From a virus: a DNA stretch of 22,225 nt. The stretch covers positions 1 through 22,225 of IMG/VR virus record IMGVR_UViG_3300044958_000491; one strand, written 5' to 3'. This document shows positions 47 through 22,225 of this stretch, piece by piece. Under the pieces are notes generated by a model, which worked only from the letters and a program-made list of their open reading frames with translations, was not told the DNA's origin and ran no database searches. The translations under genes and the position numbers were made by a program. How positions within the stretch are numbered: position 1 is the first letter of the stretch; the number at the start of each line of letters is the position of its first letter.

Positions 47-1444
47 CTAGTCTAAAAACATCATAAAGGCCGGTGAGCCAGCGTCTGAAACACTCGCTTG
101 ATCTGCCCCCATATCCCAAGTGACGCCAGTGGCGTCCCTATCAACACCATCTATATCTATGTTAACTTCATTTGTAGTCCCTAAGTCAACTCCCGCTTCT
201 AGACATACCGAACCTGTATCTAAATGCAAGTCCTCTGAACCAGCGACAGTCGAGACAAAATCTATCTCAGCCAAGCTTTTATCTATTAGAGAGCCTGTTC
301 CACTGGCATCATATGCAGTTGCTGACGTATCGTCTGACAGGTTGTAAGCCTCATTGAAAGTTCCACTACCCCCATTAGCAGGTCCATGCTCATAAGCTCT
401 TTCTCCATTTGATGCTGCGGAGACCAGTCCTGCGACTATATTGTTTTTGACATTTGCTGTAGAACCACTAATACGACCAGCTCTAATTCCAATAGCTACT
501 TTAGTACTACCGGCAGATTGTACGTTATATACGGTATTGTTATATACATTTATAATCCCAGCCCATGCATCTACAAGTATACCAGCGGCATTATCGTTGC
601 TAGTTTCGATTATGCTATAAATGATATTGTTTAGAATCGATAGGGTATCACCAGAACCAGAAGTTCCGGTGAGGGCATGAATGAGAAAAGGGCCAGTACC
701 GCCCGGATTTCCACCCTTATCATGTAAAAGATTGTTTCTTATGATATTGTCATCATTAGTTCCACGTAATACAACCGCCTTGTTAGTGTTTTGAGCGTCT
801 AGACTGCCCAAGTCTATTTCAATCCACTCCATAATAAAATTATCTATATTAACATCTATAATTGCATTATTATGTCCTGATCCGGCGGTTGGCCTTATAA
901 CAACTCCGCTTCCAGCAGTTCCGTCATGTCTATCGTCAGAGTTCACAGTTAGCTTAACAGACGCTAAACTTTGCTTATTGTCGAAGTAAACTCTTGAGTC
1001 TGTAAAGGCAGAGTCTGCATAACACTCTCCAACAACGTCATCACTAGTTCCCCAGTATGCCGGAGAAGAGTCGTCAATCATTGCCTCAAAAAGAGTGATT
1101 GTAGAAAAGGCTCTTTTAAAAACCATAGGAGCCTGAGTTGGGCTACCACTACTACCGCCACCAGTATAAAGACCAAGAGGAGAGTTGTCTCCTTTGCCTC
1201 CTGTGTCGGTTAAATACTTTAAGGTTATATTCGCTCCGCTGATAGCCGTGACAAGAAAGGTATAGTCAGAAGCACCCCCTCCTCCTGCATCTTCAGTGTC
1301 CATAAACCCAATGTCGCCAACAGATATGCCGCTTGGAGTGGTACCAAAGGTGATAACGTAAGAGGGGCCACCACCGGAAGATCCCGCAGGGGTTTCTGTG
1401 TCTATGCTTTGATTTGATCCTATACTTACTGTTGTAGTAGCCAT
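47..1444 (-). CDS. Beta-helix tail spike/fibre-associated protein
   Basis: This 465-residue protein has a low-complexity Gly/Ser/Thr N-terminus (about 1-105). A middle region (about 190-350) is rich in Asn/Ile/Val rungs such as IIRNNLL, ILNNIIY and VYNNTVYNV, the pattern of a right-handed parallel beta-helix. The C-terminal part resembles the end of secreted beta-helix proteins, with LHLDTGSVCLEAG followed by DIDGVDRDATG and WDMGAD. No catalytic residues could be assigned, so it may be a receptor-binding spike or a glycan-degrading depolymerase. The start ATG shares one base with the stop of the 1462-residue fibre gene (TAATG), so the two are probably translationally coupled and assembled together. 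It is expected at the virion surface. The fold call is by sequence pattern only; the exact role is inference. Confidence 0.7.
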   Translation of the reverse strand: MATTTVSIGSNQSIDTETPAGSSGGGPSYVITFGTTPSGISVGDIGFMDTEDAGGGGASDYTFLVTAISGANITLKYLTDTGGKGDNSPLGLYTGGGSSGSPTQAPMVFKRAFSTITLFEAMIDDSSPAYWGTSDDVVGECYADSAFTDSRVYFDNKQSLASVKLTVNSDDRHDGTAGSGVVIRPTAGSGHNNAIIDVNIDNFIMEWIEIDLGSLDAQNTNKAVVLRGTNDDNIIRNNLLHDKGGNPGGTGPFLIHALTGTSGSGDTLSILNNIIYSIIETSNDNAAGILVDAWAGIINVYNNTVYNVQSAGSTKVAIGIRAGRISGSTANVKNNIVAGLVSAASNGERAYEHGPANGGSGTFNEAYNLSDDTSATAYDASGTGSLIDKSLAEIDFVSTVAGSEDLHLDTGSVCLEAGVDLGTTNEVNIDIDGVDRDATGVTWDMGADQASVSDAGSPAFMMFLD

Positions 1445-4400
1445 TATATATTTTGCCCTATTACAAATCCGTCATAAGTGTCTGTGGCAGTACATAAAAA
1501 TCCAAAAACATCTGTTTTGCTGCCGGTCGCAGTTATGGTTGGGGCAGAACCGGCCCAACTAATTCCACTAAAGAAGTTGAGTGCTCTACTGCCCGTGCCA
1601 TCTTGTGTTACTCTAATAATAAATCTTTGTCCGACCGTTTCGTTTTCGACTGTCAGTGTTGTGGTTGCCCTGTTAAGAGTTAAGGTATGAAGGTTTGCTA
1701 GATTTACATTAATTTCAACACTATCTGCCTCAGTAAGGTCGTTGAGGGCTGGCTTTGTGGCTTTAGAAAATGTAACAGCACCAGTAGAAGCGATAGAAAT
1801 AGCATCGGTGTCAGAAGCAGAGCCAATATTTCCACCATCGGCAACAACCACGCTTGTTAGGGTTCCTACTGATGTAATCGCTGATTGAGCAGCTTGTGTG
1901 ACAGTAAGAGCAGTACCGCTTGCGTTACCCGTAACGTTACCTGTCAATGGCCCACTAAAACCAGCAGCCGTAAGAAGCCCACTGCTTGGGTTATATGTTA
2001 ATCCCGTATCGGTCTCAGCACCTTGAGTTCCCGTTGCTCCGTCTACAAAGAGCGGATAAACGGTCTCATTGGTAGTATTGTTAGCGGTAACCGTAATACT
2101 GGTTGCCTCTGTGGCGGTGGCGGCGTTTCCAGTACAGCTACCCGAACTGCCGGAGGCATTTCCGGTTAAAGCTCCAACGAATGTAGTTGCCGTAACAGTG
2201 CTGGAGTTTGGGTTATAGGTAAATGCTCCCGTATCATCAAGTAGTGCGTTACTCTCGTCGTGGAACGTTACTGGAAAAGCGGTGTCTGCTGTTGAGTCTG
2301 TTACCGTAACCAATCCAACTGTTAGACTCGCTGCGGTTCCGCTTGCGTTGGTAGCGACTAATGCTGATGGCGTACCTAGTGCTGGTGTAACTAAAGTAGG
2401 GCTATTGGCAAACACCAATGCTCCGCTACCCGTCTCGTCTGATATTACCCCTGCTAACTGAGCGGATGTTGTGGCGGCCATAACTGAAAGGTTATTGGTA
2501 GTATAAACGCCATTTGTTACTGTAGCAGCGTTGCCTGTACAGCTACCAGAGCTACCGGAAGCATCGCCCGTCAAAGCCCCGATGAAACCAGTTGCAGTGA
2601 TCTTTCCGGTAGAAGGATTATAAGTCAGCGTACCATCGGATTCCAGACCCAAATTACCGCCGTCTATATCGCCGCCTGCGGCAAAGATAATTGCGTTATC
2701 TTCAGCTGTGCTTTCGTTGTCTGTAATCGTAACAGTGGTGGCTACCGTGGCGGTGGCAGCGTTACCTGTACAACTACCCGAACTGCCAGAAACTGTCGTT
2801 TGATCGCCAGTATTGTTTCCCGAAATGCTAGCGTCGGAAAGCGCTGTGCTTAACTGAGCCACGGTAAACGAACCTAGAACAGCAGCATTGCCGGTAGACG
2901 TAATATGCCCTGTTAGATTGGCGTTTGTCGTTACTGTAGCAGCGTTACCTGTACAGCTACCAGAGCTACCGGAAGCATCGCCCGTCAAAGCTCCGATAAA
3001 CCCAGTCGCGGTAATCTTTCCGGTAGAGGGGTTATAGGTCAGTGTCCCATCGGACTCCAGACCCAAATTGCCGCCGTCTATGTCGCCGCCTGCGGCAAAG
3101 ATAATTGCGTTATCTTCAGCTGTGCTTTCGTTGTCTGTAATCGTAACAGTGGTGGCTACCGTGGCGGTTCCAGCGGTTAAGCTCGCAGCAGTTCCGCTTG
3201 CGTTAGTGGCAACCAGCGCCGAGGGTGTCCCTAGCGCGGGTGTTACCAGCGTTGGGCTAGTAGCAAATACTAATGCTCCGCTACCCGTCTCATCTGATAT
3301 TACTCCCGCTAGCTGAGCAGATGTTGTAGCAGCCATGACCGAAAGATTGTTAGTAGTATAAACTCCGTTTGTTACCGTAGCAGAGTTACCCGTACAGCTA
3401 CCAGAACTACCTGATGCGTCACCTGTAACGTTTCCCGTAAGAGGCCCAGAAAATCCGGTTGCCGCTAAAACCCCTGTGTTGGAATTAAACGTTAGATTAG
3501 TACCTGACTTCGGCCCTAAGTCTCCAGTTGCGGCAGTAACGAACAACGGAAAACATGTTGTGTCGGTAGATTCATCAGCCACGGTAATTGCGGTGGGAGT
3601 ACCACCTCCGCTAACGGTCTGCCAGCTACATGTACCGTCTCCATCTTCCCGAAGAAATTTGGAGCCACCAACTTCTCCGGTAGACTTAACTTCGGTGCCT
3701 TCGATATCAATATAAGTACCATCAATTGCAGTTCCCTGCCATACGCCCGCTCCAATAGTTCCAACGGTAGTAACATTTGCTAACGTTGTAATAGATGCTT
3801 GCGTCCCGCCAGTAACGGTGGCAGCAGTCCCACTAGCATTACCCGTAACGTTGCCTGTAAGAGGACCAGCAAACCCTGTTGCCGTTAAAACACCCGTATT
3901 GGAATTAAATGTTAGATTACTACCTGACTTCGGCCCCAAATCGCCGGTTGCAGCAGTAACGAAAAGAGGATAACATGACGTATCAGTAGATTCATCAGCC
4001 ACGGTTACTGCTGTAGCAGTTCCGCCACCAACAGAAGCCCAAACTGGATTGGCGCTAGTACCTTGTGTCTTTAAATAATGCCCTGATGTTCCCGCCCCAA
4101 GCCTAGCCCAGTCAGTACCAGTATAGTACATAATGTCACCCTGAGCATCCGACCCCAAAGCGATCATTGTTCCATCAACAGAGTTAGCTTGTATTGCAGA
4201 TGTCCCGGTTACATTTCCACTTCCGTCAAAACTAGCAGAAGTCCATACGACATCACCTGTCATGCCGATTGTTCTAGAGCTGGCCAACGCCGTAGCGGTA
4301 GCCGCGTTACCCGTACAACTACCCGAACTGCCAGAAACGTTACCCGTAACGTTACCCGTCAAGGCACCAGCAAAGAGCGTAGATGTAAGAAGACCACTGC

Positions 4401-5832
4401 TTGGGTTATATGTTAATCCCGTATCGGTCTCAGCACCCTGAGATCCCGTCGCCCCGTCTACAAAGAGTGGATAAACGGTTTCATCGGCAGTATTATTGGC
4501 GTTGACCGTAATGCTGGTTGCGTCTGTTGCCAACGTGGCGGTAGCAGCGTTACCCGTACAACTACCAGAGCTACCAGAAACTGTCGTTTGGTCACCAGTA
4601 TTGTTTCCCGAAATGCTAGCATCGGACAGTGCTGTACTTAGCTGAGCCACGGTAAATGAACCCAGAATAGCAGCGTTGCCTGTCGATGTAATATGGCCCG
4701 TTAGATTGGCATTTGTTGTTACCGTATCGGCATTACCCGTTAAAGCTCCAGCAAAGATTGTGGCGGTTACAGTTCCTGTACTTGGATTGTAATGTAAATC
4801 TCCGTCAGATTCCAAACCAAGATTGCCACCGTCTAGATCTCCACCAGCAGTGAAAATAATAGCGTTATTTTCGTTTGTGCTTTCGTTATCTGTAATAGTA
4901 ACAGTTGTTGCGACAGTAGCTGTTCCGGCGGTTAAACTAGCAGCAGTTCCGCTTGCATTGGTAGCGACTAGTGCTGAAGGCGTCCCTAGAGCAGGTGTTA
5001 CCAGTGTCGGGCTATTGGCGAATACTAATGCCCCGCTGCCCGTTTCGTCCGATATTACTCCCGCTAATTCAGAAGAAGTTGTAGCAGCCAATACGCTAAT
5101 TTTGCTGGTAGTGTAGACTCCATTTGTTACCGTGTCGGCATTGCCCGTAACATCGCCAGTTATATCGCCCGCAAAGAGTGTAGACGTAAGAAGCCCACTA
5201 CTTGGGTTATACGTTAATCCCGTGTCAGTCTCAGCGCCCTGAGTTCCCGTTGCTCCGTCTACAAAGAGCGGATAAACGGTCTCATCGGCAGTATTGTTAG
5301 CACTAACCGTAATGCTGGTTGCTAGTGTGGAGGTTCCAGCAGTTAAACTCGCAGCGGTTCCGGTTGCGTTAGTAGCAACTAATGCCGAAGGTGTTCCTAA
5401 GGCTGGAGTTACCAACGTAGGACTTGTAGCAAACACCACTGAGCCACTACCTGTTTCATCTGATATCACTCCTGCCAACTGAGCGGATGTAGTAGCTGCC
5501 ATTACCGAAAGGTTATCGGCAGTATTTACGGATTTTCCGGCGGGATAACTACAAAAGACAGTGTGTGTTCCGCTACTTAGGGTTATTTGACTATCACTAT
5601 TGGTACTAGCAAGCACGGTCGTCCTAGCCAAGGTAGTTCCCGACAAGGTATACGTCCCAATACCGACCTCCCAGCCGGTACCATTAGCGTCTTCGATAAC
5701 ATAATAGGTTGTGTTACCGTCACCAATAGCAGAAAAAGCCTGATAACCAGTCGCAGCCCCAGCGAGAGTTACCGTCCCGGTTCCGGTGGTTGTAGTAGTT
5801 TCTTTTACTCTATCTTTAAGTACTAAAGCCAT
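1444..5832 (-). CDS. Large repeat-containing tail fibre protein
   Basis: This 1462-residue protein begins [19 protein letters not shown], an N-terminal domain I recognise from fibres of many marine and environmental phages. It ends with a C-terminal domain (about 1365-1462) containing [31 protein letters not shown] and a terminal GQNI, also typical of such fibres. The body consists of shuffled Thr/Ala/Gly-rich modules: four copies of [12 protein letters not shown]...[17 protein letters not shown], seven of [10 protein letters not shown], two of [12 protein letters not shown], and several of [13 protein letters not shown]. The expected role is host adsorption as a trimeric fibre shaft. AAGGAG lies 8 bases before the ATG. 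A conserved Cys in each SGSCTGN module is unusual for a fibre shaft. Codon choice differs strongly between modules of identical protein sequence. The fibre assignment is secure; receptor and symmetry are unknown. Confidence 0.88.
2516..3168 (-). repeat. Long direct repeat inside the fibre gene (2 x 239 bp)
   Basis: Positions 2516-2754 and 2930-3168 are near-identical with no indel, offset by 414 bp (138 codons). They encode the same stretch, including [16 protein letters not shown] and [18 protein letters not shown], followed by [10 protein letters not shown]. The base differences that I can see are synonymous. More diverged copies of the neighbouring [12 protein letters not shown] module lie at about 2325-2490, 3175-3345, 4935-5105 and 5336-5510. 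The coding repeats imply module duplication within the fibre shaft. Confidence 0.85.
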
Positions 5833-7108: not shown

Positions 7109-7120
7109 CACAAAAAGTAC

Positions 7121-15600: not shown

Positions 15601-15859
15601 CTATTAACCCCAATAAATAATATTCGTAGTGTTCCTCTTTGCCTGTAACTTCTTTGTGGCAATTATAGCAAAGGGATATTCCGTTGCTTACTTCGTATCT
15701 TAACGAAGACGCACTAGCCCATTTTCTAATATGGTGTACGTACAACTTTTTGCGTCTGCCCTTAACGCCTTTGGATTTGCACATCTTGCAAGTAAACTTA
15801 TCTCTCTTCAGAACATCAGTCCTGAACTTCTTGTAACTTGGGTCTGAGTAGTTCCTCAT
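15593..15859 (-). CDS. Small HNH endonuclease
   Basis: This 88-residue stand-alone HNH domain has zinc Cys pairs C24-x2-C27 and C64-x2-C67, the catalytic YVHHI (His42-His43), Asn59 in VSNG and His68 after the second pair. This is the compact form that in HK97-like phages works with the terminase during cos cleavage, but also occurs in homing elements. Its location two genes from terL supports a packaging role. The start lies 44 bases inside the upstream dehydratase gene, preceded by TGGAGA at good spacing, so the overlap is probably real. Confidence 0.85.
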   Translation of the reverse strand: MRNYSDPSYKKFRTDVLKRDKFTCKMCKSKGVKGRRKKLYVHHIRKWASASSLRYEVSNGISLCYNCHKEVTGKEEHYEYYLLGLIDG

Positions 15860-16982
15860 CTAAATCTCCATCAATCATGTTGTGTACTAATTGTTCAAAC
15901 GAAATTTCAGGCTCCCATCCAAGTTGGTTCTTTGCTTTATCTGGAATACCTAATAGATAATCAACCTCTGCTGGTCTAAAGAACTCTGGATCAATAAATA
16001 CGAAATCTTCCCAGTTACTTATTCCAGCTCTCTCAAAAGCGATATCTAGGAAATCTCTAACGCTATGGGTCTTTCCTGTCGCCACAACATAGTCTTCGGG
16101 AATATCTTCTTGTAGCATAAGCCACATAGCCCGCACATAATCTTTCGCGTGACCCCAATCTCTCTGTGCGTCTAAATTTCCAAGTCTGAGCTTAGGAAAA
16201 CGGGGAGTTGCCATCGCCTCCATAAACTGTCGTTCTCTCGGCATACTAATATTTTCTTCCCCAATAGTGAATCTACAGCCATACGGTATTTCGGTGGAAT
16301 TATTTTTCTCCCAAGCTAAGAATCTAGCTATCCATTTAGTAATCTTCCTAGTTACGAAGTTTTCTCCTCGTCGCTCACTCTCATGATTAAACAATATACC
16401 ACAACACCCAAATATCTCATAACTATCTCTATAGTTTCTTACGAGGTGATGCGCGGCCAGTTTAGCGATGGCGTAAGGTGACTGAGGAATAAAAGGTGTG
16501 TTTTCATCTTGATATTTTATTGTAGAGCCAACCCCAAGGAGAGTATCCCCCACACTTGGTTCAGTTTCGGAGACTGAGTAATTTTTACCAAACATTTCAC
16601 TCGAAGACGCTTGATAAAACTTAATTTGTTCCCTTCTAGAACACGCTCTGATCGCTTCTAAGATGTTTAAACAGCCAGCACCAGTTACATCCCAAGTTAG
16701 TGTCGGTTGCTTAAATGAGGTACCTACGTGTGACTGAGCCGCAAGATTATATACTTCATCGGGCTCATGTTTATTAATAATGTCTGCAACACAAAATCCG
16801 TCGGTAATATCTCCCTCGACGAGTAAGAAGTTGCGATGCTTTAATTGCTCGCCGATTCTCTCCGTCGTATCCACACTACTACGTCTAGCGACTCCTACTA
16901 CCTTATATTTTTTAGAAAGTAGCAAGTCGGCTAAATAACTGCCGTCTTGGCCTGTCACTCCGAAAATGATTGCAGTCTTCAT
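15816..16982 (-). CDS. gmd: GDP-mannose 4,6-dehydratase
   Basis: This 388-residue extended short-chain dehydrogenase should convert GDP-mannose to GDP-4-keto-6-deoxymannose, the precursor of GDP-fucose, rhamnose and perosamine. The NAD(P)-binding GVTGQDGSYL (G8, G11, G14) starts the protein. NLAAQSHVG, SSSEMFG (Ser127 replaces the usual Thr; Glu129 kept), YAIAK (Tyr170, Lys174), ILFNHESERRGENFVTRKI, LGNLDAQRDWGHAKDYV and the FRPAEVDYLLG nucleotide site are all clear. Compared with E. coli Gmd it has about 20 extra residues before YxxxK and about 35 before LGNLD. AAAGGAGG precedes the ATG at the end of the upstream gene. Sugar metabolism amid packaging genes is unusual: it may alter host surface glycans or glycosylate virions. 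Confidence 0.93.
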   Translation of the reverse strand: MKTAIIFGVTGQDGSYLADLLLSKKYKVVGVARRSSVDTTERIGEQLKHRNFLLVEGDITDGFCVADIINKHEPDEVYNLAAQSHVGTSFKQPTLTWDVTGAGCLNILEAIRACSRREQIKFYQASSSEMFGKNYSVSETEPSVGDTLLGVGSTIKYQDENTPFIPQSPYAIAKLAAHHLVRNYRDSYEIFGCCGILFNHESERRGENFVTRKITKWIARFLAWEKNNSTEIPYGCRFTIGEENISMPRERQFMEAMATPRFPKLRLGNLDAQRDWGHAKDYVRAMWLMLQEDIPEDYVVATGKTHSVRDFLDIAFERAGISNWEDFVFIDPEFFRPAEVDYLLGIPDKAKNQLGWEPEISFEQLVHNMIDGDLDEELLRPKLQEVQD

Positions 16983-16983
16983 A

Positions 16984-17781
16984 TTATTTTCCTCCTTTAG
17001 TGGTTTCTGCGGACAGAAATGGTTGATCTATCTGTCCATCCTCAAATGTAATGTACTGTGATAAACGCTCTTTCTCAGCTTCGGTTGCCAATCGCATTTT
17101 TTCCATTTCCATTCCTATCTGACTTCTGAAAGTAGGATCTGATGATATCTGTTTCACCAGCGATGCAAACGTTAGCTTAGAGTCTTCGATTTGTTTAATA
17201 CGCTGCTCTCTCGTTCCCTTAAGATCCTTGAGCATTATTGCTTTGCGTGTCTGGAGATCTTTATAATCCTTAGATAGCGTCTCATGCGCCGCCCTAGCCA
17301 TAGATACTTGGCGCTCTAGTGACGAGATGTAGTCACGGTCTTGATCCGCAGTATCTTGTTCCTTCTCTACCTGAATTAGGAGCTGCGTCGCTTCGATGTC
17401 TGTCAGGTTTTCGTTTTGGCTCGTTAAGATGCGATTCATTAGAATTTCGAGCTTGATAGTATCCACGATTTGGATTTCTTCTGTGTGAAACACGTCGTCC
17501 TTAAACTGTGCCCACATCTTTTTAAAGTGGAACTGAAACAAGTCCAATTCTGACTCAGAGAACTGCTTTAATAGTTCGCTCCAGTAAGGCTTCTGTCTGA
17601 GTTCTCGATGAGCCTCGACTTCCTTTTTCTGTTTCGCTGAGAACCCTACATTATCTTCGATCCACGTAGTTATAGATGAAGCACTACGATCAAGATGATC
17701 GGCTATGGCCTCTGGAGAAAGAGCCTCGCAATTTTGCTCGATATATTGGGTCTCTTCTACTGAAAAACGCCCTCGCTTCAT
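16984..17781 (-). CDS. Probable small terminase subunit (HTH plus coiled coil)
   Basis: This 265-residue protein has an N-terminal helix-turn-helix (about 5-45, RGRFSVEETQYIEQN then LSPEAIADHLDRSASSITTW), followed by long helices and coiled coil (about 120-225, with DYISSLERQVSMARAAHETL). DNA-binding HTH plus oligomerising coiled coil, encoded upstream of terL, is the plan of terminase small subunits that recognise the packaging site. It is larger than typical TerS and separated from terL by four genes, so a regulator is the alternative. Its ATG overlaps the sigma-like gene stop by four bases (ATGA), and it ends two bases before gmd. Confidence 0.55.
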   Translation of the reverse strand: MKRGRFSVEETQYIEQNCEALSPEAIADHLDRSASSITTWIEDNVGFSAKQKKEVEAHRELRQKPYWSELLKQFSESELDLFQFHFKKMWAQFKDDVFHTEEIQIVDTIKLEILMNRILTSQNENLTDIEATQLLIQVEKEQDTADQDRDYISSLERQVSMARAAHETLSKDYKDLQTRKAIMLKDLKGTREQRIKQIEDSKLTFASLVKQISSDPTFRSQIGMEMEKMRLATEAEKERLSQYITFEDGQIDQPFLSAETTKGGK

Positions 17782-18281
17782 TCGCCTTCAATTATCTCCC
17801 TGATTACTGCCTCTATCTCTGCTTTCCTATTTTTGGATATTGAGACTCCGGCGCACAATCTTAAATAGTCCGACCTCATACCTGATGGCATATTCCTCTT
17901 AACTAACTCCATAATTTCGGAATTAGATATTTTGGACAATAAGTCTTCCTCTTCACGAGCTATGCTGAAATTTTCTAAGTTAGCTGGCTCTAGAAGGTTC
18001 TTTTTCCTCTTCTGTACCTTCTCCGCCTTGCCTTCGTCCTGACGAAAGTAGTTATCTCTTTTAAAGTTCTTTAATCTATTCGCCATGTGGACAAATAGGA
18101 AATTCTCCAAAGGTTTACTCTCGTCATATCTTTCAAGCGCCTCCATACCTATAATAAAAGCTTCCTGCTTTATATCTTCAGTAGTATAGAATGCGAACGT
18201 GAATTTGTTGGACAGTCTTTCGCTAACCTTAGTAATTATATCAACAACTTCTTGCTCTGACATATTACTAGGTATTTTCAA
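17778..18281 (-). CDS. Late sigma factor, T4 gp55-like
   Basis: This 167-residue protein resembles sigma region 2 in the reduced form of T4 gp55: LSNKFTFAFYTTEDIKQEAFIIGMEALERYD pairs by eye with gp55's SKRFNF.GYT..WKQEMI.DGIEA....FDE, followed by FLFVHMANRLKNFKRDN. There is no region 4. Such factors direct host RNA polymerase to TATAAATA late promoters, one of which is at 7101-7108. The longest frame starts at TTG 18281 with AGGGGG 9 bases upstream; an ATG at 18263 has no SD at useful spacing. TTG directly follows the upstream stop (TAGTTG), so coupling is plausible. The C-terminus lacks an obvious sliding-clamp-binding motif. Assignment is by pattern; a remote sigma of another family is possible. 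Confidence 0.72.
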   Translation of the reverse strand: MKIPSNMSEQEVVDIITKVSERLSNKFTFAFYTTEDIKQEAFIIGMEALERYDESKPLENFLFVHMANRLKNFKRDNYFRQDEGKAEKVQKRKKNLLEPANLENFSIAREEEDLLSKISNSEIMELVKRNMPSGMRSDYLRLCAGVSISKNRKAEIEAVIREIIEGE

Positions 18282-18980: not shown

Positions 18981-19047
18981 ATCTGCATCAAGTGGGGGCG
19001 AATCAGGGGCCAGTCGAGAAGGATTAGCTAATACATTGATATATTTT

Positions 19048-19134
19048 ATGTTACTTTTCGTTTACACCACCACGGGGCAAACACAAACAGGCAGCTACTT
19101 TTCTGATGAACAAACAACTACCCTGACCTACTAG
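19048..19134 (+). CDS. Possible 28-residue peptide
   Basis: ATG at 19048 opens MLLFVYTTTGQTQTG and SYFSDEQTTTLTY, stopping inside GC element 1. An in-frame TTG at 19036 would add four hydrophobic residues and is 12 bases after AAGGA. The hydrophobic start and polar tail look peptide-like, but with so short a frame chance is a real alternative. The rest of 18981-19126 shows nothing else recognisable. Confidence 0.28.
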   Translation: MLLFVYTTTGQTQTGSYFSDEQTTTLTY

Positions 19135-19185
19135 GGCGGCGGCCGACGGGGGCGTCTCACCCCCTAACGGAGGGGGAAAAAAGTA
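19127..19185 (+). repeat. GC-rich hairpin element, copy 1
   Basis: It begins CCTACTAGG, has a GC-rich middle, then CTCACCCCCTAACGGAGGGGG (hairpin CCCCC/GGGGG) followed by A-rich sequence. It aligns with the copies at 20148 and 21289. The last G (19176) is 45 bp before the -35 box at 19221. There is no T-run directly after the stem, so it is not a standard intrinsic terminator, although seven T lie 16 bases further on. Confidence 0.7.
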
Positions 19186-19220
19186 TTTTGGGTTTTTTTC
19201 AAATAAAGTTAAGTTTACCC

Positions 19221-19249
19221 TTGACAAATGCCGATAATAATAGTATACT
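19221..19249 (+). promoter_or_regulatory. Rightward promoter P1 (class I)
   Basis: TTGACA, a 17-bp spacer containing GCCGATA, and TATACT. GTTAAG starts 13 bp before the -35 box and ATAAGAAGTTAA follows in the leader. It serves the 68-residue gene at 19290. Confidence 0.85.
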
Positions 19250-19289
19250 TAAGACATAAGAAGTTAACAACGAACAAAGGAAAAAGACA

Positions 19290-19496
19290 ATGACAGTATT
19301 AAAATCAGGATTCAAAGTACTAAGAGAATTTAGAGGCAACGGTGTTTATCGACGGTACTTAGTCGAACATCAAATAATGGGTAACTATGCCGTTCACATG
19401 TCGCATAAGGAATTAACAATAGGCGATAGAATGAATACTATCGTTCCCGAAGAAGTAAGTAAAAGTAAATACTATTTGATAAAACTATACAAATAA
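19290..19496 (+). CDS. Hypothetical small phage protein
   Basis: This 68-residue basic protein (TVLKSGFKVLREF, VEHQIMGNYAVHM, SKSKYYLIKLYK) has no membrane segment and no motif I recognise. AAAGGA lies 8 bases before the ATG, and promoter P1 lies 41 bases before. The stop TAA is part of the AAATAAAGTTAAG motif that precedes promoter P2, an identical 13-mer to that before P1. As part of the promoter-per-gene array, it is probably an early host-takeover or accessory protein; this is context only. Confidence 0.68.
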   Translation: MTVLKSGFKVLREFRGNGVYRRYLVEHQIMGNYAVHMSHKELTIGDRMNTIVPEEVSKSKYYLIKLYK

Positions 19497-19510
19497 AGTT
19501 AAGATTGCTC

Positions 19511-19539
19511 TTGACAAAAGACGATATATACTATATAAT
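19511..19539 (+). promoter_or_regulatory. Rightward promoter P2 (class I)
   Basis: TTGACA, 17-bp spacer with GACGATATATA, perfect TATAAT. GTTAAG again starts 13 bp upstream of the -35 box. The predicted start falls at or next to an ATG (19546) in the leader ATGACAAACAAC. Confidence 0.88.
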
Positions 19540-19584
19540 ACAAGCATGACAAACAACGATACAAACAACAAAGGAAACAACGAT

Positions 19585-19797
19585 ATGATTAATGCAACAC
19601 ACAACGTAAGAGTTATCAAGCACATCGACGGTAGCTATAATACATACGCTAACTTTACTACAGTAAAAGAAGCGTTGGGCTACATGAGACGATTAGACTT
19701 TGTTAATGATAGTTGGTATATCATTGATGCTAACGATAACCGTTTACGATTGAACGATCAAAATAAACTAGAAGTATTTAATAGTTTAATTGGTTAA
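19585..19797 (+). CDS. Hypothetical small phage protein
   Basis: This 70-residue soluble protein (INATHNVRVIKHIDGSYNTY, SWYIIDANDNRLRLND) resembles small phage domains with two or more short beta strands, but I do not recognise it. The longer frame from ATG 19546 would begin at the predicted transcription start of P2, so I prefer ATG 19585, which has AAGGA 9 bases upstream. Leaderless use of 19546 (13 extra residues) cannot be excluded. The gene is flanked by P2 and P3. Confidence 0.68.
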   Translation: MINATHNVRVIKHIDGSYNTYANFTTVKEALGYMRRLDFVNDSWYIIDANDNRLRLNDQNKLEVFNSLIG

Positions 19798-19812
19798 TGT
19801 TAAAGATTACCC

Positions 19813-19841
19813 TTGACAATAGCCGATATATATAATATAAT
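19813..19841 (+). promoter_or_regulatory. Rightward promoter P3 (class I)
   Basis: TTGACA, 17-bp spacer with GCCGATATATATAA, TATAAT. GTTAAAG lies 14 bp upstream. The leader begins ATGACAAACAACAAC, as at P2. Confidence 0.88.
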
Positions 19842-19883
19842 AAGAGCATGACAAACAACAACATTCCAACGAAAGGGAATACA

Positions 19884-20141
19884 ATGAGAGTTTCAGAATT
19901 AGAGTTTACTACCGAAATGCGCGAAAATGTTTGGCGCGGTCATAGTGTCGAAACCAAGACAGACGCTTGTCGTATGATTGGCAATGAGCGACACGCTCAA
20001 AACTACATCGAAGAATTCGGTGATGTTGAAATCGTTCACGCTGGACGTGGCAATCACTGGGAAGTTCCTGCTTTCAAGGCAGAGCTTGCTGAGTACAGTA
20101 AACTAAAACAGGCTTACTGCGACCAATACGGGAGTAACTAA
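19884..20141 (+). CDS. Hypothetical small phage protein
   Basis: This 85-residue charged protein (MRVSELEFTTEMREN, then NYIEEFGDVEIVHAGRG and EVPAFKAELAEYSK) has no clear family match. AAAGGGA is 6-8 bases before ATG 19884. The upstream in-frame ATG at 19848 coincides with the predicted P3 start site and would add 12 residues lacking an SD. The stop is 6 bases before GC element 2, which closes this three-gene set (19290-20141). Confidence 0.7.
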   Translation: MRVSELEFTTEMRENVWRGHSVETKTDACRMIGNERHAQNYIEEFGDVEIVHAGRGNHWEVPAFKAELAEYSKLKQAYCDQYGSN

Positions 20142-20147
20142 CGGAAG

Positions 20148-20208
20148 CCCCACTAATGGGGGGCAAGGGGCCCCGGCCTCTCACCCCCTACGAGGGGGGG
20201 TAAAAATA
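20148..20208 (+). repeat. GC-rich hairpin element, copy 2
   Basis: CCCCACTAATGGGG can form a first small hairpin, GGGGCCCC follows, then ACCCCCTACGAGGGGGG forms the main stem, ending with TAAAAATA. The last G (20200) is 44 bp before the -35 box at 20244. It lies directly after a stop codon, so it is transcribed as a 3' end or bounds the promoter behind it. The gap 20142-20310 holds only this element, P4 and a leader. Confidence 0.75.
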
Positions 20209-20243
20209 CTTTGCATTATTCTGAGAAAATACTAATGTTAAGC

Positions 20244-20272
20244 TTGACATGTGCCGATATATATAGTATACT
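20244..20272 (+). promoter_or_regulatory. Rightward promoter P4 (class I)
   Basis: TTGACA, 17-bp spacer with GCCGATATATATAG, TATACT. The leader has ATAAGAAGTTAAG. GTTAAG also starts 7 bp before the -35 box. Confidence 0.85.
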
Positions 20273-20310
20273 TAATATATAAGAAGTTAAGCAATTGAAA
20301 GGGCTTTGAT

Positions 20311-20430
20311 ATGATTAGAGATTTAATAAACGAGTTTGGTTATGCGGCTACTGTAGTAGGTGGCTTAATTGTAGGCTTTGCTGTTATGTGGTGGGTAAAA
20401 GAAATTGGCGATTTTCTTATAAATAACTAA
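20311..20430 (+). CDS. Tiny single-pass membrane protein
   Basis: This 39-residue frame starts MIRDLINEFGYAA, has a hydrophobic segment (about 11-27: YAATVVGGLIVGFAVMW) and ends KEIGDFLINN. It has its own promoter P4, a good SD (GAAAGGG, 7 bases before the ATG) and its own following promoter, so it behaves like the other genes of the array. It could be a membrane-acting peptide (for example superinfection or lysis control), but size and one helix do not define a role. Confidence 0.62.
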   Translation: MIRDLINEFGYAATVVGGLIVGFAVMWWVKEIGDFLINN

Positions 20431-20439
20431 TGATTACTA

Positions 20440-20468
20440 TTGACAAATGCCGATACTTAGTATATAAT
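20440..20468 (+). promoter_or_regulatory. Rightward promoter P5 (class I)
   Basis: TTGACA begins 10 bases after the preceding stop; the 17-bp spacer has GCCGATACTTAGTA, then TATAAT. The leader contains ATAAGAAGTTAAG. No GTTAAG is seen upstream. Confidence 0.86.
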
Positions 20469-20509
20469 ACAAGCATAAGAAGTTAAGACATTAAACGAAA
20501 GAGAATACA

Positions 20510-20827
20510 ATGAAGACAACTGAAACAAACATCTTAAACGTAGTATACAACAGTCATCGTATCTTGATTGATAAGATAACTGAATACGATTACAATGGCG
20601 ATATGGCTACAGCTAAGAAGATATGCACTGTAGTGCGCTATGATACTCGTGAGGGTATAGAGATTGGCACGCCAATGATATTCAACGTATCACCCTATGA
20701 GTCATTAGTAGATATGCATACTATGGCGCGCGTGTGGATTGCTTGCGGCTGTCCTAGTGATGGCGATGCCAACGGTATACCACGTAAGTGGACTAAAGAA
20801 GACCTACACGCATTGGTAGCAGGCTAA
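20510..20827 (+). CDS. Hypothetical phage protein
   Basis: This 105-residue protein begins MKTTETNILNVVYNSHRILI. It has an acidic stretch (EYDYNGDMATAKK), a beta-looking middle (CTVVRYDTREGIEIG) and a Cys-containing VWIACGCPSDGD. No family is recognised. AAAGAG precedes the ATG by 6-7 bases after promoter P5. The next gene follows in 31 bases without a new promoter, so the two form a small operon. Its composition differs from the late genes only in small size. Confidence 0.7.
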   Translation: MKTTETNILNVVYNSHRILIDKITEYDYNGDMATAKKICTVVRYDTREGIEIGTPMIFNVSPYESLVDMHTMARVWIACGCPSDGDANGIPRKWTKEDLHALVAG

Positions 20828-20858
20828 TACAGTATCTATAAAGAAAGAGAATACTATA

Positions 20859-21209
20859 ATGAGAAAAGAAACTAATCCAGTAATCAAATGTGCCGATGGT
20901 TTTACTGTGTCTGTACAGGCACGAGATGGTGCATACTGTACGCCACGCGAAGATTATCCACCTACGCCATACACTCACGTAGAGTGTGGCTTTCCGTCAT
21001 CTACGCCTACTACTAAAGAGCTGCGAGAGTATGCGGAACTATACGATGAGCCTTACAACTACTGCGGAACCGTTTACCCATACGTGCCGATTGCCGTAGT
21101 ACAGGCAGAGCTTGACGCGCATGGTGGTATAGCTGATGGCTGCATGCCGTCCAACGAACCAACCAACGAAGCTCTTACTGACAGCTACTTCAATGGCTGG
21201 CTTGAGTAA
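20859..21209 (+). CDS. Hypothetical phage protein
   Basis: This 116-residue protein (KETNPVIKCADGFTVSVQAR, then YPPTPYTHVECGFPSSTPTT) has five Cys and many Pro/Tyr; an acidic helix follows (PTTKELREYAELYDEPYN). It ends EALTDSYFNGWLE. No family is recognised. AAAGAGAA lies 7-8 bases before the ATG. It is second in the P5 operon, and the non-coding stretch after it (21210-21455) holds GC element copies and promoter P6. Confidence 0.7.
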   Translation: MRKETNPVIKCADGFTVSVQARDGAYCTPREDYPPTPYTHVECGFPSSTPTTKELREYAELYDEPYNYCGTVYPYVPIAVVQAELDAHGGIADGCMPSNEPTNEALTDSYFNGWLE

Positions 21210-21259
21210 GCTTGTCATAGCTAACCCAGTCCCGCTATGCAGGAGGATGCCCAGTACAT

Positions 21260-21277
21260 CCACTTATGGGGGGCCGC
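21260..21277 (+). repeat. Partial GC element
   Basis: CCACTTATGGGGGGCCGC resembles the start of elements 2 and 3 (CCACTAATGGGGGG) and lies 29 bp before copy 3, so part of the element is tandemly duplicated. Confidence 0.5.
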
Positions 21278-21288
21278 GTGCTGACTGA

Positions 21289-21347
21289 CCCAATAATGGG
21301 GGGTAGGCGCCCCGGCCGCGAGCCCCCCACGAGGGGGGGTAAAAATA
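21289..21347 (+). repeat. GC-rich hairpin element, copy 3
   Basis: CCCAATAATGGGGGG, then GCGCCCCGGCCGCG, then CCCCCCACGAGGGGGGG and TAAAAATA. The last G (21339) is 44 bp before the -35 box at 21383. It follows the 116-residue gene by about 80 bases. The three copies share length and spacing more than they share exact sequence. Confidence 0.75.
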
Positions 21348-21382
21348 GTTGGTATTATTTCTAAAAAATAACGCATTTGGAC

Positions 21383-21411
21383 TAGACAAGCTAAAGAATT
21401 TCTGTTATAAT
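21383..21411 (+). promoter_or_regulatory. Rightward promoter P6 (class II, extended -10)
   Basis: TAGACA, 17-bp spacer ending AATTTCTGT, then TATAAT with the extended TGnTATAAT form. The class I spacer motif is missing, but GACGATATAA occurs just after the -10 box. It drives the 67-residue gene. Confidence 0.75.
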
Positions 21412-21455
21412 GACGATATAAGTAATAGAGAATTAAGTTATTAAGGAAAAATAAA

Positions 21456-21659
21456 ATGGCAAACGCAGGACGAAAAATGATAAGCGGAGTTAATACTAGG
21501 GTAACTATAAAGAGCGTTAAGCTTGACCCAAATAGTAAGGCTTACAAAAAAGTCATAGCAGACTCGAAGGGTGTTCTTAACGGCAGCCCTGATATATATC
21601 AGGATACCACCAAAATAATGAATACTAAGCTTGCTAGAAAACTCGGATATATTAAGTAA
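21456..21659 (+). CDS. Small basic protein
   Basis: This 67-residue Lys/Arg-rich protein (MANAGRKMISGVNTRVTIK, then KVIADSKGVLNGSPDIYQD and KIMNTKLARKLGYIK) is likely nucleic-acid binding by charge, with no recognised domain. AAGGA lies 8 bases before the ATG. It is the only gene in the array behind a class II promoter with a -35 mismatch, suggesting different timing. Confidence 0.68.
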   Translation: MANAGRKMISGVNTRVTIKSVKLDPNSKAYKKVIADSKGVLNGSPDIYQDTTKIMNTKLARKLGYIK

Positions 21660-21687
21660 AAAAGTCAAGAAAAAGTTAAGATTAGGC

Positions 21688-21716
21688 TTGACAAATGCCG
21701 ATATATATTATATAAT
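21688..21716 (+). promoter_or_regulatory. Rightward promoter P7 (class I)
   Basis: TTGACA, 17-bp spacer with GCCGATATATATTA, TATAAT. GTTAAG starts 13 bp before the -35 box. The leader reads ATAAGAAATTAAG. Confidence 0.88.
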
Positions 21717-21758
21717 AGCAGTATAAGAAATTAAGACAGTTCAACGAAAGGGACTAAA

Positions 21759-21938
21759 ATGATTAAAGGAACTAAAACAGTTACAACTAACGGATTTACA
21801 TTTGCATACATACCAAGTATGAGGATGTTAAATGTCACTAGCCCAACAGGTGGAATAGAAATATACCACCAAAAAAGCGAGGAAAAAGCCAACGAAATAG
21901 TTGGAGATATTTTAGAAAAACATCGCAATAGGGCTTGA
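21759..21938 (+). CDS. Small hypothetical protein
   Basis: This 59-residue frame starts MIKGTKTVTTNGFTFAYIPS and ends ANEIVGDILEKHRNRA. It has two beta-like stretches, TSPTGGIEIYHQ, and a C-terminal helix, resembling a compact alpha/beta domain. No family is recognised. AAAGGGA lies 5 bases before the ATG, behind P7. The TGA stop (21936-21938) lies inside the -35 box of the next promoter, showing how tightly the array is packed. Confidence 0.66.
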   Translation: MIKGTKTVTTNGFTFAYIPSMRMLNVTSPTGGIEIYHQKSEEKANEIVGDILEKHRNRA

Positions 21939-21963
21939 CAAATCCGGCAATTTATGTTATAAT
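21935..21963 (+). promoter_or_regulatory. Rightward promoter P8 (class II, extended -10)
   Basis: TTGACA, 17-bp spacer ending AATTTATGT, then TATAAT (TGTTATAAT). Sequence up to the -10 resembles P6 rather than the GCCGATA class. The leader begins ATAACAAACAACAAC. Nothing credible is encoded immediately downstream. Confidence 0.82.
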
Positions 21964-21969
21964 GTAGAC

Positions 21970-22225
21970 ATAACAAACAACAACGACCTGAGCCTTTAAC
22001 CAAGAAACGAACCTAATCCAATGCAGAACTAAAACGGTAGCCTTAACAGGCGGTAGAGTCGAAACCCGTGACATGATAGAAACCTGAAGCTTAACAGGAT
22101 AACAATAGCACGTCAAGCTTAAGAGCGTAAACAATAGCAGGTCAACGGTTAAGACCATAACAATACCGCAACCGCACAATGGCACGACAAGGAGAAATTA
22201 GATAGCTCTTTTGTTAGTCTAAAAC
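21970..22225 (+). ncRNA. Candidate non-coding RNA or long leader (3' end open)
   Basis: After P8 there is no ORF longer than a few codons on the plus strand before the window edge. Small hairpins with TTAA-type loops recur: GCCT-TAAC-AGGC near 22040, CCTG-AAGCTTAA-CAGG near 22084, GCT-TAAG-AGC near 22117 and GGT-TAAG-ACC near 22147. Two imperfect tandem units lie at 22100-22127 and 22128-22157. AAGGAG at 22189-22194 has no ATG within the window. It may be a stand-alone RNA or a long 5' UTR of a gene starting beyond 22225. Confidence 0.35.
22100..22157 (+). repeat. Imperfect tandem repeat with covarying hairpins
   Basis: Units 22100-22127 and 22128-22157 share ACAATAGCA, GTCAA and TTAAGA. Each ends in a short stem around TAAG, GCT/AGC in the first and GGT/ACC in the second, so one base pair changes on both sides. 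Confidence 0.5.

Follow-up and report, generated by a model that had tools for sequence, protein, structure and literature searches.

Boxes resembling flagellar promoters interleaved with the sigma70-type promoters of a tiny-gene array in uncultured ocean phages

What reads a motif that recurs between the -35 and -10 hexamers of one promoter after another in a single viral genome? The question is raised by the IMG/VR virus record IMGVR_UViG_3300044958_000491, a stretch of 22,225 bases (the window, taken at its full length) with its late genes on the - strand and an array of tiny genes on the + strand. Within 3.2 kb (19000-22225), the + strand holds eight sigma70-type promoters (TTGACA and TATAAT, spacer 16-18 bp allowed) that score at least 11/12 and all have a 17-bp spacer, against none on the - strand and a mean of 0.034 (maximum 1) in Markov-1 shuffles of the same region. 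On the + strand, GCCGATA occurs only at 19230, 19822, 20253, 20449, and 21697, each time 3 bp past TTGACA, and a sixth copy, GACGATA, lies at 19520, so that in six promoters G[C/A]CGATA occupies an identical place in the spacer; GTTAAG starts at 19208, 19498, and 21675, in each case 13 bp ahead of the -35 hexamer. An earlier interpretation of the letters alone (the sequence-only reading) had described these eight promoters, the five GCCGATA spacers with a GACGATA variant in the 19511 promoter, and the three GTTAAG sites, and all of this is borne out. It had taken the spacer motif to suggest an operator or a shared phage regulator bound between the two hexamers. The answer we favor, with a probability of roughly 0.6, is that the array promoters are composites, readable both by the housekeeping RNA polymerase holoenzyme and by a holoenzyme of the FliA/WhiG class.

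The two-box unit and its turnover

Alignment of the promoters uncovered a second conserved box, so that the element consists of T[A/C/T]AAG[A/T]TT (box1) upstream of TTGACA together with GCCGATA[A/T] (box2). GCCGATA is hence not the lone site it had been thought to be, but the downstream half of a pair whose upstream half is the GTTAAG sequence, and the pair also occurs in other registers. Across all collected loci, the pitch from T[ACT]AAG to G[ACT]CGATA is 20 bp at 132 sites and 21 bp at 288, with at most 12 sites at any other value, and 410 elements are found versus 4 in the reversed control. Relative to TTGACA the boxes move (box1 from -14 to -7, box2 from +7 to +13) while the distance between them stays constant, and their positions correlate even when the main, seeded class is left out (r = 0.86, permutation p < 1e-4). 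The element is co-oriented with the sigma70 promoter in 301:0 cases over all loci and in 43:0 over an unbiased set of 80 loci, picked solely by similarity of the terminase gene, in which the two boxes also co-occur with an odds ratio of 23 (p = 3e-11). In the main register (I), the sigma70 -10 hexamer usually starts 14 bp after box2, with 9-16 bp seen often; in a separate class (register II), it starts 6 bp before box2, with box1 in the spacer and box2 directly past TATAAT; and a few elements lie entirely upstream of the -35 hexamer (register about +37). Where two-box promoters of several relatives depart from TTGACA, TTGACT (40) and TTGCAA (25) outnumber all other variants. The promoters of the window are as follows.

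19209-19249, + strand: composite promoter 1, register I; box1 TTAAGTTT 19209-19216, TTGACA 19221-19226, box2 GCCGATAA 19230-19237, TATACT 19244-19249; then an open reading frame (ORF) at 19290-19496 (68 amino acids)
19499-19539, + strand: composite promoter 2, register I; box1 TTAAGATT 19499-19506, TTGACA 19511-19516, box2 GACGATAT 19520-19527, TATAAT 19534-19539; then an ORF from 19546 or 19585 to 19797
19801-19841, + strand: composite promoter 3, register I; box1 TAAAGATT 19801-19808, TTGACA 19813-19818, box2 GCCGATAT 19822-19829, TATAAT 19836-19841; then an ORF from 19848 or 19884 to 20141
20233-20272, + strand: composite promoter 4; degenerate box1 TAATG 20233-20237 (one mismatch), TTGACA 20244-20249, box2 GCCGATAT 20253-20260, TATACT 20267-20272; then a 39-amino-acid ORF at 20311
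20428-20468, + strand: composite promoter 5; degenerate box1 TAATG 20428-20432, TTGACA 20440-20445, box2 GCCGATAC 20449-20456, TATAAT 20463-20468; then an ORF at 20510-20827 (105 amino acids)
21383-21419, + strand: composite promoter 6, register II; TAGACA 21383-21388, box1 TAAAGAAT 21392-21399 within the spacer, TATAAT 21406-21411, box2 GACGATAT 21412-21419; then an ORF at 21456-21659
21676-21716, + strand: composite promoter 7, register I; box1 TTAAGATT 21676-21683, TTGACA 21688-21693, box2 GCCGATAT 21697-21704, TATAAT 21711-21716; then a 59-amino-acid ORF at 21759
21935-21963, + strand: plain sigma70 promoter with TG ahead of its -10 hexamer and without the two boxes

The promoter at 21383, which had seemed motif-less, indeed has no GCCGATA in its spacer, but both boxes are present 20 bp further downstream (TAAAG at 21392, GACGATA at 21412), which places it in the second register class. 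The proposal of one promoter per tiny gene holds for seven of the eight, each followed by a small ORF; the promoter at 21935 has no ORF of at least 30 amino acids before the fragment ends, and ORF 20859-21209 lacks a promoter of its own and is probably served by composite promoter 5. The genes do look like the co-regulated, cassette-like array that had been suggested, and their tiny products give weak family matches or none.

The motif recurs well beyond the window. In the terminase-selected loci, G[C/A]CGATA sits in the spacer of 45 of 121 strong sigma70 promoters, against 0.2 expected, and an IMG/VR search with TTGACANNNGCCGATAN7TATAMT returned at least 120 stretches (some of these scans give lower bounds), compared with 8 for a control heptamer of the same composition. 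The sequences are phylogenetically related and the counts not independent, the main bias being guarded against by the terminase-selected set and by orthologous comparisons. This recurrence of the composite design across hundreds of ocean phage promoters suggests that two kinds of polymerase can read each gene; a literature search of open-licence full texts found no published account of such arrays.

At orthologous promoters, the boxes come and go together. The 19511 promoter keeps both in relative L092 and has neither in L206, L058, L011, and L244; the 19813 promoter has lost both in L092 and L206; the 19221 site carries the other register in L206; the 20440 promoter, with its degenerate box1, has a counterpart in L044 in which both boxes are perfect; and the register II arrangement at 21383 is conserved in L092. 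Free drift of the spacer in relatives would have spoken against the sequence-only reading, and the element is indeed sometimes lost, but orthologous promoters that gain or lose both boxes retain TTGACA and the -10 hexamer, a pattern of turnover of a whole unit rather than of spacer bases drifting freely. The two boxes thus behave as one unit, with its own pitch and orientation, independent of the sigma70 hexamers and lost as a whole. The spacer motif, as had been argued, is selected and implies a factor besides sigma70, although GCCGATA is no solitary operator placed between the two hexamers.

A proposed second promoter, and the explanations that compete with it

The boxes have a close counterpart among flagellar promoters. 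Seeding with AAG/CGAT alone recovers T (95+%), A/C/T, AAG, [A/T], T for the first box and G (93%), C>A>T, CGAT, A (93%), [A/T] for the second, and these sites present the -35 octamer TAAAGTTT followed by the -10 octamer GCCGATAA in the order and orientation of FliA/WhiG promoters. The Escherichia coli sigma28 consensus is TAAAGTTT-n11-GCCGATAA (PMC2859248), WhiG has the same promoter specificity (PMC8325347), and E. coli FliA sites include the variant TAAAGATT...GTCGATAA (PMC4183435).

The same boxes also occur on their own. When IMG/VR was scanned with the boxes freed of any sigma70 constraint and sorted by octamer gap, stand-alone elements of other phages made up 60 of 66 at N11 and 33 of 45 at N12, and 24 of 30 elements at N13 contained a sigma70-type -35 hexamer (TTGAC or TTGCAA). 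The 30-kb contig G108 (L429) carries 13 stand-alone elements without a sigma70 promoter, all at pitch 19, of which 11 fall within 4.6 kb (458-5100), each before a small ORF in the layout seen in the window. Smaller sets of stand-alone canonical elements (TAAAGTTT-N11-GCCGATAA) are found in G105 and G110, and G115 also carries such elements. Phage G114 (L431; 129.5 kb, with DNA polymerase and SbcC-like genes) has an independent set of 10 fused sigma70/flagellar-type sites at pitch 19. An 11-bp gap is thus seen in G108, G105, G110, and G114. Taken together, the boxes, their order, their strict co-orientation, and their stand-alone use elsewhere point, at the level of sequence, to a second FliA/WhiG-class promoter over an ordinary operator.

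The arrangement would work as follows. A first, strong sigma70-type promoter, TTGACA-N17-TATAAT, would serve the host housekeeping holoenzyme, and a second of the FliA/WhiG class, TAAAG[A/T]TT-N12/13-GCCGATA[A/T], would overlap it in the same orientation, in the main register with the -35 box shortly before TTGACA and the -10 box inside the sigma70 spacer, in the second with both boxes about 20 bp further downstream. Either holoenzyme would yield an mRNA that retains the ribosome-binding site of the same gene, so that each tiny gene could be expressed by two forms of polymerase, although the two would compete for the same DNA and could not bind at once. We infer that a sigma factor reads the boxes, that transcription starts from both promoters, and that these are early genes.

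Several observations weigh against this interpretation. The 11-bp octamer gap of E. coli FliA is not the one used here, the gap being 12 or 13 and thus 1-2 bp wider, and the canonical pitch of 19 stays at background level in the window's phage family; for this reason the boxes are claimed to work like an E. coli-type FliA promoter, not to be one. Stand-alone two-box elements are almost absent from the window's own family (a candidate is L009:1672, after a tRNA). The large array-bearing relatives G019 and G023 have no detected small sigma factor of the kind described below, and G004 encodes one yet lacks a two-box array, both of which count against a simple one-to-one link with that protein. 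Finally, as a check on a host FliA, the element is not enriched in 60 sampled Chloroflexota genomes.

The main rival, which we hold to be unlikely, is that the boxes form a two-part operator, bound by a regulator of phage or host origin that would silence the early sigma70 promoters or boost them, with the flagellar likeness coincidental or derived. Nearly all elements of the window's family do overlap a sigma70 promoter, in a variety of registers (9-16, -6) that a repressor acting by occlusion would tolerate, and some promoters drop the element while retaining the sigma70 core. Classical phage operators, however, are symmetric or single sites free in orientation, whereas these boxes are asymmetric and fixed at 301:0; moreover, both match the flagellar consensus in order, their pitch varies by 1 bp, as that of promoter elements does, they stand alone before genes in other phages, and occlusion would fail at the few elements wholly upstream of -35.

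Far less plausible is the spread of promoter cassettes by duplication, with the motif inherited and not selected. Small-gene arrays often grow in this way, and within each phage the leaders and promoter cores resemble one another; the idea is nevertheless strongly disfavored, as the element is gained and lost whole at orthologous sites and is found in several registers and in different phage lineages, while the flanks diverge. Least credible of all is an account by features intrinsic to the sigma70 promoter, namely an UP element together with a spacer that favors the housekeeping polymerase: box1 of the main register does fall where an UP element would (about -47) and the upstream DNA is A+T-rich, but the unit slides against the hexamers at constant pitch, which refutes the simple form, the register II unit lies partly downstream of -10, and many equally strong promoters lack the unit.

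Candidate sigma factors and the late genes

If the boxes are a FliA/WhiG-class promoter, their reader may be a host factor of that class or a small phage sigma factor with regions 2 and 4. The host factor is the conservative choice, since early genes must first be read by host factors, and it is favored by phages such as G114, in which region-4 sigma was not detected; the wider box spacing argues for a divergent reader. Small sigma factors of 155-220 amino acids with regions 2 and 4 are present in 10 of the 12 array-bearing contigs of at least 95 kb. By sequence, their nearest solved relative is WhiG (E = 2e-4 with a single sequence, 3e-7 with a profile), and FliA_WhiG is the best subfamily match of the G001 protein behind the general ECF model; AlphaFold and Foldseek indicate a sigma fold, with matches too weak for assignment to a subclass. 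The recognition helix varies among lineages with identical boxes. Strict linkage of the array to this gene is rejected, on account of G004 (L348-L355), where the array promoters mostly lack the two boxes and several repeat aaaatcgcTTGACA instead. We regard as doubtful the bolder version, in which an uncultured, large, and widespread group of ocean phages encodes its own FliA/WhiG-derived two-domain sigma factor, adapted to the spacing wider by 1-2 bp, and has its whole early region rewritten as interleaved host-sigma70/phage-sigma composites. Were it true, early genes read by the host could pass to phage control with their promoters unchanged, and the sigma factor might be a late product that travels in the virion.

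The window itself encodes a different kind of sigma factor; its late genes are listed with it.

Late genes, - strand: terminase, probable portal, ClpP-like protease, and a long repetitive protein
17778-18281, - strand: sigma-70 protein of 167 amino acids with region 2 only, gp55-like by architecture, divergent from the array

This protein matches region 2 and not region 4 (Pfam Sigma70_r2 at E = 7e-5, slightly short of the curated threshold; NCBIfam sigma70-ECF at 2e-5), and its neighborhood, divergent from the array, recurs in most relatives. Many structural genes in the window and in G001-G003 are preceded, at a distance of roughly 40-120 bp, by a conserved motif, TGTGTATA or TTTTGTGTATA-like; in the window, the TTTTGTGTATA-like form occurs on the - strand at 7112, 12435, and 18650. 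This motif is likely a late promoter and differs from those of the array; its position before structural genes suggests that the region-2-only sigma probably serves late genes. As a reader of the two boxes that sigma is disfavored, because the structural genes bear the different motif TGTGTATA.

Other features of the window touch the array or the late region. A G+C-rich double-hairpin module ending in CCCCCNACGAGGGGGGTAAAAATA or similar precedes three promoters (19137-19180, 20146-20205, and 21268-21345); it recurs in relatives, in several of them ahead of the -35 hexamer by about 37 bp, and, without a U-tract, is not a classical terminator. Past the promoter at 21935, the + strand of 21964-22225 has no ORF of at least 30 amino acids and contains repeated units AAGCTTAA..AACAATAGCA.GTC, parts of which recur in L075 and L069; a non-coding RNA or a long leader is possible. 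Rfam and tRNA scans found nothing. Inside the late region, 15816-16982 (- strand) encodes a protein that by eye resembles GDP-mannose 4,6-dehydratase.

Hosts, significance, and comparison with known systems

Searches of the phage collection with the DNA, the portal-like protein, and the region-2 sigma of the window phage turned up no cultured relative, and its terminase gave only 26-30% matches there. Matches of the promoter region to Enterocloster phages proved to be generic sigma70 promoters without the boxes, and among the bacterial genomes with the full pattern, most have no upstream box and appear to be chance hits. Those metagenome-assembled genomes (MAGs) that have it, assigned to SAR202, Micavibrio, Flavobacteriales, and ALOHA gammaproteobacteria, look like phage contigs within MAGs and give no consistent host. 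Among the G007 contigs (SAR202 MAG OSU_TB57), C7, C9, and, less clearly, C13 probably come from phages of this group and were binned with a SAR202 genome, a possible host lead and not proof.

Transcription of phage early genes is commonly taken to rely on the housekeeping sigma factor alone. If the composite and stand-alone designs are what they appear to be, phage expression would be tied to the motility or developmental state of the host, or phages would have taken over that regulatory class. TAAAG-N15/16-GCCGATA around TTGACA also offers a sequence handle for arrays of early host-takeover genes in uncultured ocean phages.

The early arrays of lytic phages (T4 early genes, the SPO1 host-takeover genes) likewise place many strong housekeeping-sigma promoters before small genes of unknown function; they are not known to contain a flagellar-type element, and no description of such an array with one was found in the literature searched. 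The stoperators of mycobacteriophage L5 are also asymmetric, oriented sites that may overlap a -35 box, but they are single 13-bp sites spread genome-wide, unlike the promoter-tied two-box elements described here. The T4 gp55-type late system has its parallel in the region-2-only sigma and the late-promoter-like TGTGTATA before structural genes, with the difference that this region-2/late system of the window stands apart from the array. Overlapping dual-sigma promoters of bacteria (for example, sigma70 with FliA in flagellar class II operons) similarly make a gene readable by two holoenzymes, but there the pair stands at one operon, whereas in the phages the design is repeated, with interleaved boxes, across a gene array. 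With flagellar (sigma28/FliA and WhiG) promoters themselves, the phage element shares octamers, order, orientation, and tolerated variants; it differs in its gap of 12-13 instead of 11 bp, and in being embedded in a sigma70 promoter before the tiny genes of phages.

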